This document shows, in pieces, positions 11,046 through 15,832 of a stretch of DNA of 30,573 nt (positions within the stretch are counted from its first letter, which is position 1; each line of letters begins with the position of its first letter). Under the pieces are notes generated by a model. That model was not told where the DNA came from, made no database searches, and saw nothing but the letters and a program-made list of their open reading frames with translations. The position numbers and the translations under genes were made by a program. Origin of the DNA: a virus; IMG/VR virus record IMGVR_UViG_3300023220_000233, positions 1 through 30,573 of that record; one strand, 5' to 3'.

Positions 11046-11924
11046 TTATTGCGAGTAACCGCTTGTCACTTCAAATTCGTCCAAAACAGCGACCGGTACC
11101 CGTGTATCCGGGCGGTTTGGCAACGGGCCATGATTATTGTGATCCCATTGATTGCTTTTTTTCCAGTATCTCACACGGTTTCTCCATTTGATTAATTCAC
11201 CATCCTGGTTCTCTTCAGATCGAGCCTTTGAGAATTTTTCGTTAATAGGCTTAGCATAATATTTCAATGTTGCTGGGACTGGCTTACCAATTGCTTGGCA
11301 TCGGTTCACAGTCTCTCGAATAACTGGCTCGATGTGATCTTCAAAAATCATTCCCTGCGTCTCCCATTTCTCAGCGAATTCTTCACACTGCTCTGTAATT
11401 TTTTGGTTGGGATTTCTCATGAGATTGATTTCAGCAGTCTTAAGGCATTTTTCAAGAAAAACATTCTCGCGCGTTATTAATTGGTTATATTGGTTATATT
11501 GGTTTGTTTTGTCCCGCCTCTGTCCCGCCTCTGTCCCGCCTCTGTCCCGCCTCTGTCCTTGTTGCTGTCCCACATCTGTCCCACTTTCCCTATTAACGTC
11601 CTGATATTTGCAGTAATTACAGATAGTTATGACGTTTTGTCCTGTCCCGTTTTCGAGTTCGACCCTGTCCGCATCAACCATTATTGCAAGAAATCGCGAA
11701 ACCCTGTTTTTATCCCACCTCCAAGCTTGCGCAAGGTACCGAAGGCTCGCCGTTAACTGACCTCTTTTCAACTTCATAATTTTCCCCGCGACCCTAAAAG
11801 GCCGGTCTTTCCAAGCGGCTTTTTCTATCATATAAAGGAATGCTTCCCGCTCAGTATAAGGCTCATCTTCAAAAACATCGTCGTCCATCCAACCCCGGAT
11901 CATAATATAAAAATCTTTGCTCAT
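11046..11924 (-). CDS. Replication initiator, DnaD/gpO-like, with internal iterons
   Basis: 292 residues. The N-terminal part (FYIMIRGWMDDDVF; TASLRYLAQAWRWDKNRVSRFLAIM, about 55-80) is a winged-helix domain of the type found in phage replisome organisers. A Gln/Arg/Asn-rich low-complexity linker (about 113-146) is encoded by 11-base repeats that change frame from copy to copy. The C-terminal half is helical and basic. It lies just upstream of, and 1 base from, the DnaB helicase stop, so it probably binds the origin and loads that helicase. Like lambda gene O, it appears to contain its own origin sequence. The winged-helix assignment is by pattern. Confidence 0.78.
   Translation of the reverse strand: MSKDFYIMIRGWMDDDVFEDEPYTEREAFLYMIEKAAWKDRPFRVAGKIMKLKRGQLTASLRYLAQAWRWDKNRVSRFLAIMVDADRVELENGTGQNVITICNYCKYQDVNRESGTDVGQQQGQRRDRGGTEAGQRRDKTNQYNQYNQLITRENVFLEKCLKTAEINLMRNPNQKITEQCEEFAEKWETQGMIFEDHIEPVIRETVNRCQAIGKPVPATLKYYAKPINEKFSKARSEENQDGELIKWRNRVRYWKKSNQWDHNNHGPLPNRPDTRVPVAVLDEFEVTSGYSQ
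11471..11587. other. Candidate replication origin: iteron array plus AT-rich tract
   Basis: Plus-strand copies of TGTCC-type repeats start at 11510, 11521, 11532, 11543, 11554, 11566 and 11577. The first four are identical TGTCCCGCCTC, the fifth is shortened (TGTCCTTGTTGC) and the last two are TGTCCCAC variants. Spacing is 11 or 12 bp, one helical turn. On one side (11471-11509) lies an AT-rich tract with tandem TTATATTGG units. Iterons plus an AT-rich unwinding tract within the initiator gene is the lambda origin plan. Confidence 0.65.
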
Positions 11925-11925
11925 C

Positions 11926-13323
11926 TTACCCCCTCACTGCTGATGTTTTTTTATAAAATTTCACATTTGCAGTGCCAGTCGGCCCCGCTCGTTGCTTGGC
12001 AATGATAATTTCAAGATCATCTTCAATCTCCTGGCATCGCTCGAACCACTCGTCAAATTTTGTAGACTCCTTAGGTTCTTTTTTCTTTAAATATTCATGC
12101 TCGCGATAAACAAAAAGTATCATGTTTGCATCCTGCTCAATGGATCCGCTATCCCTGAGGTCTGACATAATAGGTTTTTTGTCATCCCGATGCTCAAGAT
12201 TTCTGGATAATTGAGACAAAACCAAAAAAGGAATATTAAATTCTTTGGCTAGATTTTTTAGGGTCCGGGTAATCTCGGTTATCTCACCCACCCTATTGCC
12301 CCGGTAACGATCACCGGCATTCATGAGCCCGAGGTAATCAACAACGACCAGGTCCAGGGTCTTTCCCTTCGTCTCAAGCAGCCGCCGCAATTTAAGGCAT
12401 TCAAGTCTAATTGAGGTGGTTGAGGCATTGCTTTTGTCAGTGATATAAATTGGCAATCGCGCAGCTTTTTCTCCAACTGCTTTGAACCGCTCGAATTGAT
12501 GCTGATCGAAATTTCCTACCCGTGCATCAAAATAAGCTAAAGGACTGGTTTCATTATGGGCCATATCCGAAATCAACCGCTGTCCGAGTTCGTGCCGTTG
12601 CATTTCTAGGCTGAAAAATGCACCATAATGACCATCTTTTGCGGCACCCTTTAAAATGTTCATAGCAAGGGCAGTTTTCCCCATAGCCGGACGACCCGCA
12701 AGGATAATTAATTCTCCAGGGAATAGCCCGCCGGTCAATCGGTCAAGCGACTTTAGCCCGGTGGTTACCCCGGCAATCTCACCATCTTTAAGTAACATCG
12801 AGGCTTGAACCTGCTCTATAGCACTCTCAACAGAGCTTGAAACGTGTGCTAGCCCGTTAGAGGCTTCGCTTGTGTGGTTTATGGTATGAAGGGACTGTTC
12901 AAGGCTTTCTACTATGCTGGCGGCGTCCCCCGTCGATGTATTCACGGCCTCGTTAATCGCTGACCAACACAATTCCATAATCTTGCGGCGACACGACATA
13001 TCAACAACGATTTTGCCATATTCTTTGGTGTTAATCAGGGTGGGTGGATATCCGGCAAGTTTGGCAAGATATGCTGTCCCGCCTAACTCGAAAACATCAA
13101 CGCCTTCGAGCTTGTTACAAAGCGTTACGGGATTAACAAGCTGCCCAGCGTCAATATGCTTTTGAAATAATCCATATAATTTTTGATGGGAGGCATCGAA
13201 AAAGTCTTCTGGTTTAAGAAATTCCGCCACATGGAAATATGTGTCATTATTGCAGAGTATTGCGCCCAAAACAGACATTTCTGCCCCGAGGTTTGTGGGT
13301 ATTTCTCTTTCGTGATCACTCAT
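11926..13323 (-). CDS. dnaB: Replicative DNA helicase DnaB
   Basis: 465 residues from the ATG at 13323. The N-terminal DnaB domain begins IPTNLGAEMSVLGAIL (8-23). The RecA-like C-terminal domain has Walker A AGRPAMGKTAL (209-219), Walker B LVVVDYLGLM (325-334), and further motifs QLSRNLEHRDDK and DLRDSGSIEQDA as in DnaB helicases. It unwinds the fork 5' to 3' as a hexamer. The frame stays open to an ATG at 13371, but this would overlap the 54-codon gene and add residues unusual for the family; at 13323 the ATG overlaps the end of that gene and has a GGTGA site upstream. Confidence 0.92.
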   Translation of the reverse strand: MSDHEREIPTNLGAEMSVLGAILCNNDTYFHVAEFLKPEDFFDASHQKLYGLFQKHIDAGQLVNPVTLCNKLEGVDVFELGGTAYLAKLAGYPPTLINTKEYGKIVVDMSCRRKIMELCWSAINEAVNTSTGDAASIVESLEQSLHTINHTSEASNGLAHVSSSVESAIEQVQASMLLKDGEIAGVTTGLKSLDRLTGGLFPGELIILAGRPAMGKTALAMNILKGAAKDGHYGAFFSLEMQRHELGQRLISDMAHNETSPLAYFDARVGNFDQHQFERFKAVGEKAARLPIYITDKSNASTTSIRLECLKLRRLLETKGKTLDLVVVDYLGLMNAGDRYRGNRVGEITEITRTLKNLAKEFNIPFLVLSQLSRNLEHRDDKKPIMSDLRDSGSIEQDANMILFVYREHEYLKKKEPKESTKFDEWFERCQEIEDDLEIIIAKQRAGPTGTANVKFYKKTSAVRG

Positions 13324-13480
13324 CGTATTCACCCATAAATCGTACCCATGATCTACGGGCTTCCAATCCATCCTCTAAAGACAGAGTAACCTGAGCGATT
13401 TTTGATTTTTCAACATAATCAGCCCAAAGCTCTTCTAGGATTTTTTCTGTGGGTACTGTGGTGATTTTATCCATGGCCAT
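13316..13480 (-). CDS. 54-residue protein leading the helicase operon
   Basis: A short frame begins at an ATG at 13480, 6 bases after a strong CAGGAGAC-type ribosome site, and ends inside the helicase start. The product is acidic and helical (TEKILEELWADYVEKSK; ARRSWVRFMGEYDE). It is the first gene behind the structured leader at 13494-13566 and is translationally linked to dnaB. No known family. A second ATG lies two codons downstream. Confidence 0.65.
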   Translation of the reverse strand: MAMDKITTVPTEKILEELWADYVEKSKIAQVTLSLEDGLEARRSWVRFMGEYDE

Positions 13481-13610: not shown

Positions 13611-13793
13611 TCAGGTTTTTTTATTAACTGATTGTGTTAACAGGAGCCAGTGCGCGCAACAGCCCGTATAATCTCTCACCGGTCCGTCTAATTCAGAAAC
13701 AATTTTTTCGCCTTGCCCATAAACTTTCAAAGCGTCACTCATTATTTCACTCAAATGAATTATATTATGAGTAGTCGGAATTTGAATTATCAT
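13611..13793 (-). CDS. Small hypothetical protein
   Basis: 60 residues, with the start overlapping the stop of the wHTH gene (ATGA). Contains IPTTHNIIHLSEIMSDALKVYGQ and DYTGCCAHWLLLTQ. No recognised family. It is the last gene before the helicase operon promoter. Confidence 0.55.
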   Translation of the reverse strand: MIIQIPTTHNIIHLSEIMSDALKVYGQGEKIVSELDGPVRDYTGCCAHWLLLTQSVNKKT

Positions 13794-14128
13794 TTTTCCC
13801 CCCTAATTTCTAATTTGTATCCGTATCCATATTGCCGACTTATATTAACCCCCTCAGGAAGCCGCGTTCTTATCTTGTGCACCAGCGCGCTTAAAATGCT
13901 GTTCTGATAATCTGGCCACTCATCTGGGTGTTGATCATCATACATGAAATCAATTAGGTCGTCTCTGCTCACAAAGCGGCCCCTATGGATATTTAATAGG
14001 AATAAGACGTAATGAATAATAGGAGATGGAAGACCTCCATTGTCTATCTGACATAATTGATATGTCTTACCGTCATATACAAACTGGTGATTTTGGAAAT
14101 TATACCAACTCATTTTGAAATCAGTCAT
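13790..14128 (-). CDS. Stand-alone OmpR/PhoB-type winged-helix DNA-binding protein
   Basis: 112 residues from the ATG at 14128, which has an AAAGGA site overlapping the preceding stop; the frame is open further upstream. The fold signature of the Trans_reg_C domain is visible: a beta sheet start (FVYDGKTYQL), VLFLLNIHRGRFVSRDDLIDFMY, then the recognition helix region NSILSALVHKIRTRLPEGVNIS and the C-terminal hairpin RQYGYGYKLEI. There is no receiver domain, so it is not a two-component response regulator. It is probably a phage transcription factor, perhaps for the leftward operon. Its target is unknown. Confidence 0.78.
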   Translation of the reverse strand: MTDFKMSWYNFQNHQFVYDGKTYQLCQIDNGGLPSPIIHYVLFLLNIHRGRFVSRDDLIDFMYDDQHPDEWPDYQNSILSALVHKIRTRLPEGVNISRQYGYGYKLEIRGEK

Positions 14129-14132
14129 GTGA

Positions 14133-14453
14133 TTAATCCTTTTCGTGGATATTGCTGACCACCTCAGCAAACCGCCAAAGCCTAGGTTCAAGGGTTTCAC
14201 TGTGCGTAAACCGGGCTACGAAAAATGCTCCTGGTCGGTTGAAAAATACTCTGTAAATGTCATCCTCAAAACTTAATTTGTCCCCTTTATAAATCTCTTT
14301 GCCGTTTTTGTCCTCCAGGCCGGTAAATTGCTCCATCGGCCATTTATCAAAATAATGCCTCACCGGCGATACCCATGTGTTATCGACCCAACCAAAGTAA
14401 TGAAATGGCATGCCTCGTATACCAACATATTGCCTAAATTTTATCGGTCCCAT
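14133..14453 (-). CDS. YopX-family phage protein
   Basis: 106 residues. The motif FTGLEDKNGKEIYKGDKLSF (about 43-62) is the hallmark of the YopX family, a common beta-barrel protein of phages and plasmids with no settled function. It starts MGPIKFRQYVG and ends 4 bases before the next gene's start. Part of the early leftward operon of small genes. Confidence 0.8.
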   Translation of the reverse strand: MGPIKFRQYVGIRGMPFHYFGWVDNTWVSPVRHYFDKWPMEQFTGLEDKNGKEIYKGDKLSFEDDIYRVFFNRPGAFFVARFTHSETLEPRLWRFAEVVSNIHEKD

Positions 14454-14456
14454 CTT

Positions 14457-14723
14457 CTAAACTCCTTCAAATAAATCCAGCGTATCAGGACAATGATATT
14501 TCTCATCATCAATTATTTCGGCAAAATTGATGCATCTGGGACCTTTCTTATCAGTTATCCACTCCTCGGGATATTTTGGATCATCAAAATCATAGGCCAT
14601 AGTGTCACCCATAATCGGACAAAACTTTTCCGCTTCAAAATCATCATGAATGCAGTTATTACACCATTTTGACTGGAAGATTTCTCCTTCTGTGCCGTTC
14701 GATGGTCTATATTTTTCAGGCAT
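14457..14723 (-). CDS. Cys-rich small phage protein, probably metal-binding
   Basis: 88 residues from the ATG at 14723, chosen over the ATG at 14735 because of a GGAG site 8 bases upstream. The opening KYRPSNGTEGEIFQSKWC is a pattern found in many phage hypothetical proteins. C-x2-C (WCNNCIH) plus later cysteines (KFCP, PRCINF, HCPD) could hold zinc. The DDPKYPEEWI segment is typical of the same group. It is the first gene of the leftward operon after the noncoding region. Function unknown. Confidence 0.72.
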   Translation of the reverse strand: MPEKYRPSNGTEGEIFQSKWCNNCIHDDFEAEKFCPIMGDTMAYDFDDPKYPEEWITDKKGPRCINFAEIIDDEKYHCPDTLDLFEGV

Positions 14724-14883
14724 ATCAAACTCCATTCAATCTATCGTTAGAGCCATACGGGGTGGCCTCCAAGAAAATTTGGTGACGGATTAATGGCTCC
14801 GCCTGGCCAACACCATCTATTCGGCATAACCCCATGATGCAAGGGCCTACAAAGCCAAGAGCCAAAGCTCTTGAATATGCCTT

Positions 14884-15205: not shown

Positions 15206-15832
15206 GTGAATGCAGGTACAAAAGTAGGTTATGCAAGGACTTCAAGGGAAGATCAATGCCTTGATTTACAGCTTAACGCATTAAAAAAAGAAGGGGTTGA
15301 AGGCGAGCATGTCTTTCACGAACAATTGTCTGCCTCGGCTAAAAAGAGGCCTCAATACGAACTGGCATTAAAGCGGTGTCGTAGCGGCGATATTCTGGTT
15401 GTGTGGAAGCTGGACCGGTTGGGCCGATCATTAAAACACCTTATTAAAGTTGTCGCGGATTTGGAAGGAAGGGGCGTTCAGGTGGTCAGTATTACTGAAA
15501 GAATTGACACCACCACCCCTATGGGAAAACTTTTCTTTCACTTAATGGCCTCGATAGCCCAATTTGAGGCAGACCTGATCAGTGAGCGCACGAAAGCCGG
15601 TCAAGCGGCAGGAAGGGAACGGGGGACCTATAAAACTCGCCCTGTGACCTTTACAGAGGCGCAGTGGGAAACAATGGTTACTGCCTTTGAAGATGATAGC
15701 CGCCTTGGCATATCGGCAGTCGCACACAAGGCAGGGCTTAAATATGCAACAGTTTCCCGATACTGGGAAGAAATCAAGGGTGCTATGGCCTTTCATGACC
15801 GGTTCCCATACGAGAAGGATAGAAAGAAATGA
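15206..15832 (+). CDS. Small serine recombinase (resolvase/invertase family)
   Basis: 208 residues, GTG start preceded by AAGGA. The N-terminal catalytic domain has VGYARTSREDQ with the nucleophile Ser13, the arginine-bearing VVWKLDRLGRS (65-75) and a DLEGRGVQVVSI/FFHLMASIAQFEADLISERT helix E region (95-130). The C-terminal HTH (about 170-195) would bind crossover sites. The length fits resolvases and invertases, not large serine integrases. It could resolve genome or plasmid multimers, invert a segment or integrate by an unusual route. It is transcribed from the promoter at 15128-15156 and its stop overlaps the next ATG. Confidence 0.9.
   Translation: MNAGTKVGYARTSREDQCLDLQLNALKKEGVEGEHVFHEQLSASAKKRPQYELALKRCRSGDILVVWKLDRLGRSLKHLIKVVADLEGRGVQVVSITERIDTTTPMGKLFFHLMASIAQFEADLISERTKAGQAAGRERGTYKTRPVTFTEAQWETMVTAFEDDSRLGISAVAHKAGLKYATVSRYWEEIKGAMAFHDRFPYEKDRKK

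Follow-up and report, generated by a model that had tools for sequence, protein, structure and literature searches.

A Putative Replication Origin inside the Gene of Its Own Initiator in a Family of Phage Winged-Helix Proteins

Seven short direct repeats, followed by an AT-rich tract, are located in the center of the initiator gene of a virus whose entire record of 30,573 bp was analyzed as the window. This array is most probably a replication origin within the gene of its own initiator, working like the lambda ori or the pSK41 rep (rough probability 0.88). The same design is present in a large set of relatives, in which the repeated hexamer changes together with two residues of the predicted recognition helix.

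Results

The Iteron Array and the AT-Rich Tract of the Window

The first-pass annotation of this DNA had proposed seven TGTCC-type repeats, about one per helical turn, within an initiator-like gene. All seven are found at the proposed starts in a 292-aa ORF (table 1), with start spacings of 11, 11, 11, 11, 12, and 11 bp, and they correspond to residues about 113–140. The repeat at 11554 reads TGTCCT. On the gene strand, that is, (−), six copies read GGGACA and one AGGACA; from 5′ to 3′ the units are GTGGGACAGAT, GTGGGACAGCA, CAAGGACAGAG, three times GCGGGACAGAG, and GCGGGACAAAA, spaced by 11, 12, 11, 11, 11, and 11 bp. The identity of four copies over all 11 bases was also recovered (4.5 copies with 100% match), as was the neighboring AT-rich tract with its roughly three units (74% A+T, 2.8 copies of a 9-mer). 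On the gene strand, this tract comes after the iterons and is A-rich. The least stable 40 bp of the initiator gene start at 11473, within the tract, and rank in the top 0.7% of the contig.

The array is beyond chance. As controls, 220 segments were taken from another 18 genes of the window. When at least three phased hexamers with p ≤ 0.01 against synonymous recoding were demanded, none of these passed, and two overlapping segments of the initiator gene did. Lambda O, used as a positive control, fails this exact-hexamer test, which is specific to the design of the window since the lambda iterons exceed those of the window in length and divergence and have another spacing.

The GC skew of the window tracks the gene strand and was thus set aside as neutral on the origin. 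Gene direction and skew switch together near 14.7–15.2 kb (13790–14735 on the (−) strand, 15206 onward on the (+) strand), where a resolvase-type recombinase gene (15206–15832) adjoins the switch. The skew minimum in this region follows from gene strand; it might alternatively mark an origin.

Table 1. Features of the initiator gene and its neighbor in the window.
Feature	Position	Strand	Evidence or remark
Initiator gene, 292 aa (winged helix, disordered linker, helical C-terminal region)	11046..11924	-	ORF, PHROG, AlphaFold2
Winged-helix DNA-binding domain (predicted), residues 1-110	11595..11924	-	pLDDT mostly 85-97; conserved among relatives
Recognition-helix codons, residues 72-84	11673..11711	-	AlphaFold2; iteron covariation at residues 72 and 76
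Extra iteron GGGACA in wing codons G93-T94	11643..11648	-	66 bp (6 x 11) from iteron 1
Iteron 1 GGGACA	11577..11582	-	First array copy
Iteron 2 GGGACA	11566..11571	-	
Iteron 3 AGGACA	11554..11559	-	One mismatch; 12 bp from iteron 2
Iteron 4 GGGACA	11543..11548	-	
Iteron 5 GGGACA	11532..11537	-	
Iteron 6 GGGACA	11521..11526	-	
Iteron 7 GGGACA	11510..11515	-	Adjoins the AT-rich tract
AT-rich tract, probable unwinding element	11471..11509	-	9-bp repeats ATTGGTTAT (+ strand, 11480-11504)
C-terminal helical region, residues 150-259	11148..11477	-	AlphaFold2 helices
Phage DnaB replicative helicase	11926..13371	-	PF03796 4.2e-81, PF00772 2.7e-23, phrog_19 8.1e-100

The Initiator and Its Neighbor

The initiator matches the PHROG profiles phrog_35955 (E 7.8e-33), phrog_2514, a DnaD-like helicase loader (E 2.9e-18), and phrog_186 (E 2.5e-10), and no family reaches the cut-off in a Pfam scan of the protein. 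In the AlphaFold2 model, built with 58 sequences, the wing is predicted as strands 88–92 and 97–101 with the loop 93–96, and the linker (residues 117–145) has pLDDT below 50, i.e., it is predicted to be disordered. Fold matches include the solved N-domains of plasmid initiators (4pt7 and 4pql) and a Rep–DNA complex (5kbj), at a probability of 0.99 but with weak E values of 0.02–0.05 and amid many other winged helices. A sequence search of solved structures with the initiator gave nothing useful. The C-terminal helical region probably recruits the helicase. The gene of the phage DnaB is directly upstream of the initiator gene, and this gene order, along with the analogy to related families, suggests a link between the two proteins.

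The Layout Is Shared by Diverged Relatives

Relatives were drawn from viral contigs, bacterial genomes, and named phages, resulting in 131 homologs with 112 distinct linkers. An alignment of the winged-helix domain was needed as query to gather them; a search with the single protein found one relative in the viral contigs and none in the contigs of bacterial genomes. Annotated relatives belong to Staphylococcus, Vibrio, Bacillus, and Sulfitobacter phages.

In 103 of the 112 distinct linkers, one hexamer occurs three or more times, in exact copies, after the winged helix, and the remaining nine are without three such copies. Neighboring copies are spaced by 11 bp (207 times) or 12 bp (86 times), and a degenerate copy leaves a gap of 22–24 bp. 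Spacings of 10, 13, and 21 bp were permitted in the search of the 112 linkers and never occurred. The last gap ahead of the A-rich tract is 11 bp in 62 of 69 arrays. A tract adjoining the array in the same layout is present in 88 of 89 homologs (A 47% and T 16% on the gene strand), with an A+T fraction of 0.63 versus 0.41 downstream.

The hexamer itself varies, mostly in the form GNNNCA. GGGACA, GACGCA, GATACA, GAGACA, GAAACA, GGGGCA, GGGCCA, GCCGCA, and GAGGCA are found, among others. The Sulfitobacter phage pCB2047-A has GGGACA, like the window.

Covariation of the Recognition Helix with the Iterons

In a set of 71 nonredundant homologs, the strongest covariation partners of base 3 of GNNNCA are residue 76 (z 18.5), one turn into the recognition helix, and residue 72 (z 17.6), at its start. 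GGGACA is paired with K72/D76 (20/29), GACGCA with E or D72/R76 (12/13), and GATACA with Q76 (7/7).

As far as these homologs tell, shared ancestry does not explain this covariation. Taking base 3 from the relative that is closest over the remainder of the domain is correct in 40 of the 71 cases, which equals a constant guess of G, and two random columns predict 33.6. Residues 72/76 predict base 3 in 61, with only relatives of <50% identity being used. The tree of the 71 homologs requires at least 37 hexamer changes. Outside helix and wing, L149 (GGGACA) and L216 (GACGCA) are 76% identical. A strict test, limited to independent pairs whose branches are well supported, had two to four pairs to work with, too few for significance, and none of them goes the wrong way.

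The rule was fixed before new loci, themselves relatives of the training set, were analyzed, and in these it was right in 15 cases and wrong in one (L265), with eight loci outside the rule. L265 has the helix K72/A76 with GACGCA repeats; its helix resembles that of L182 (GCGACA), and its site may have been read in the wrong register.

Residues 93/94 also covary with the iteron, which was dismissed as a sign of DNA contact, as the codons of these residues are themselves a copy of the iteron. A check of the recognition helix for this artifact came out clean: its DNA is without the motif and matches the own hexamer at 3.42 of 6 bases and those of other classes at 3.47. The covariation of the hexamer with residues 72/76, together with the rule holding in the held-out loci, indicates that the initiator of this family itself probably reads its repeats.

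Recognition may serve a purpose other than replication. The covariation speaks for recognition and not for origin function, and iterons in other replicons also act in copy control, so that the initiator might bind the repeats mainly for control of copy number or of its own gene, through an operator or handcuffing, with replication starting elsewhere. We regard this as unlikely. The array lies in the middle of the gene and hundreds of bases away from its start codon, it adjoins the least stable DNA of the gene in the layout common to 88/89 homologs, and the same layout is found in proven in-gene origins (PMC7466680, PMC5703833). The origin within the initiator gene remains the preferred reading.

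The DNA Spacing Is Kept and the Peptide Is Not

Selection on DNA rather than on protein was claimed in the first-pass annotation from the array of the window, where four identical copies alone prove little, as slippage could yield them. The relatives, which this annotation had proposed to compare for spacing against peptide, provide the firmer ground and show the reverse of the pattern that would have refuted the claim: the 11/12-bp spacing and the repetition within each gene are kept in the 103 linkers mentioned above, and hexamer and peptide vary together. Because a given hexamer is translated in more than one frame, the linker peptide follows its changes. For instance, the three frames give GT/GQ/RD for GGGACA, DA/TQ/RR for GACGCA, DT/IQ/RY for GATACA, and ET/RQ/RD for GAGACA, and the array copies across relatives are distributed over frames 0/1/2 as 154/101/84. 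The hexamer count exceeds that of synonymous recodings of the same peptide (p < 0.05) in 96 of the 112 linkers. Judged by the relatives, selection acts on the DNA of the array.

These results bear directly on the possibility that a flexible Arg/Gln/Gly linker was selected as protein and that the DNA repetition is a by-product. The linker is indeed predicted to be disordered and is rich in polar residues, but recoding fails to reproduce the repeats in those 96 linkers, the peptide differs among relatives under a constant DNA spacing, and a single hexamer is translated in all three frames, which leaves this explanation very improbable.

Additional Sites in the Wing Codons

The iteron in the wing codons of the window (table 1) is an addition to the repeats listed by the first-pass annotation and the sole exact copy that the window has in its wing. 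Such a copy is found in 79 of 93 homologs, versus 23.6 expected from recoding, in frames 64/14/1. The wing peptides over the iteron include SGTG or AGQG for GGGACA and TGHG for GGGCCA. Within the 110-codon domain, the motif is nearly confined to codon offsets −24, −20, and −17/−16 from the domain end, mostly in 12-bp steps, and relatives have up to three copies. The distances from the wing copy to the array cluster at 54–56, 65–68, and 77–80 bp, near 5, 6, and 7 × 11. This phasing is suggestive only, since the protein fold fixes part of the distance.

A recent, functionless tandem duplication by replication slippage has hardly any likelihood left as the source of the array: four units are identical over 11 bases and slippage may well supply new copies, but the layout recurs in about a hundred diverged relatives with zero spacings of 10 or 13 bp, neighboring units agree at 88–100% in the core (a partly biased figure, the core having been chosen as the repeated part) and at 39–77% outside it, the same hexamer lies 66 bp away in the wing, and the repeats covary with the recognition helix.

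Similar Arrays Elsewhere

A DNA scan for GGGACA triplets served for examples only, and the matches listed include many unrelated places. Among them, initiator-like genes outside the winged-helix profile carry coding GGGACA arrays at 11 bp in L053 (14753, +), L109 (3729, +), L029 (1704), and L128 (2112, −); in the latter two, the array is on the strand opposite to the gene. The in-gene array design may be wider than the family of the window.

Also among the matches listed, three GGGACACCATA-like repeats at 11 bp are located beside an inverted GGTGTCCC and AT-rich DNA in L018 (3379), L020 (5415), L028 (1713, −), L051 (3354), L059 (823, −), L067 (4964, −), L068 (1739, −), and L075 (7677, −). These loci, most of which have no long same-strand ORF, are perhaps an origin or operator outside genes.

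Linker repeats are found in the phage initiators of Bacteroides, Staphylococcus pseudintermedius, Vibrio, Pseudoalteromonas, Anoxybacillus, and Enterococcus (L006, L007, L008, L009, L331, and L332), with cores such as CGACAG and GGACA. Several have an Asn-rich, A-rich tract after the linker, and in several the core is also present in the wing.

Discussion

Comparison with Known In-Gene Origins

In-gene origins are already known. In lambda O, as in the O genes of Stx phages, iterons in the middle of the initiator gene are followed by an AT-rich tract, O binds its own gene, and each iteron is an inverted repeat (PMC7466680). The iterons of the window are likewise inside the initiator gene and flanked by an AT-rich tract, but they are direct repeats with a 6-bp core at 11–12 bp, in contrast to the 18-bp inverted repeats of lambda, which start 20–24 bp apart in the lambda record. 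Furthermore, DnaB is encoded by the window virus itself, and part of the site cluster is in the codons of the DNA-binding domain. Phage_rep_O is absent among the Pfam matches of the window initiator and 58 homologs. The term lambda-like, used by the first-pass annotation, therefore fits the position and the probable function of the array, but not the type and spacing of its iterons, its protein family, or its sites in the domain codons.

The Rep of pSK41 has an N-terminal winged helix, structurally like DnaD, which binds Rep boxes central in the rep gene, and the protein segment coded by the origin is dispensable for replication (PMC5703833). The sites of the window are also central in the initiator gene, but the system belongs to a phage and not a plasmid, a DnaB gene is adjacent, and RepA_N is absent in the Pfam scans of the initiator and its 58 homologs. 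The system belongs to neither the lambda O nor the RepA_N family. By sequence, the initiator is a member of the phage DnaD-like helicase loader/replisome organizer families (phrog_2514, phrog_35955, and phrog_186), whose annotations are without an in-gene iteron array or a recognition code.

Matching of initiator residues to origin iterons by comparing relatives has a precedent in the geminivirus Rep, a rolling-circle initiator of unrelated fold whose iterons are outside the rep coding sequence. Differing O/ori specificities of lambdoid phages are the subject of older work.

A Proposed Model of Initiation

The array, its spacing and conservation at the DNA level, the wing copy, the AT-rich tract, and the helix/iteron covariation can all be read from the genes themselves. 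Physical binding is proposed from the covariation, and melting, helicase loading, and the start of replication at the array are proposed from the layout and the precedents of lambda and RepA_N. In detail, the N-terminal winged helix (residues 1–110) would bind one GNNNCA iteron per subunit, GGGACA in the window. Since the sites are 11–12 bp apart, the subunits would be arranged head-to-tail along one face of the DNA, and the copy in the wing codons, or up to three of them in relatives, would lengthen the array roughly in phase. The assembled complex would then melt the adjoining A-rich tract, and the C-terminal region would bring the phage DnaB that is encoded next door.

It also seems likely that this family writes its own sites twice, once as the 11-bp array of the linker and once as phased copies within the sequence that encodes the DNA-binding hairpin, and that the specificities of sites and recognition helix have shifted in concert on many occasions. 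The resulting code, from residues 72/76 to iteron base 3 and more weakly to bases 2 and 4, would be readable from single genes.

Novelty and Significance

The new elements are a family with short iterons at 11/12 bp, extra iterons where the DNA-binding hairpin is encoded, and a recognition code readable across relatives. In the part of the literature covered, no description of the in-gene array, the wing-codon copies, or the code of this family was found.

The wing copies are unusual in that one stretch of DNA is a predicted binding site and at the same time encodes a piece of the predicted DNA-binding domain. Few environmental phages have a known origin, and here the gene, the origin, and the probable specificity may be called from one ORF. 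Each of these genes would hold both lock and key, and the family thus offers a natural experiment in which initiator and origin change specificity together without losing function, a process that is hard to approach in most replication systems.
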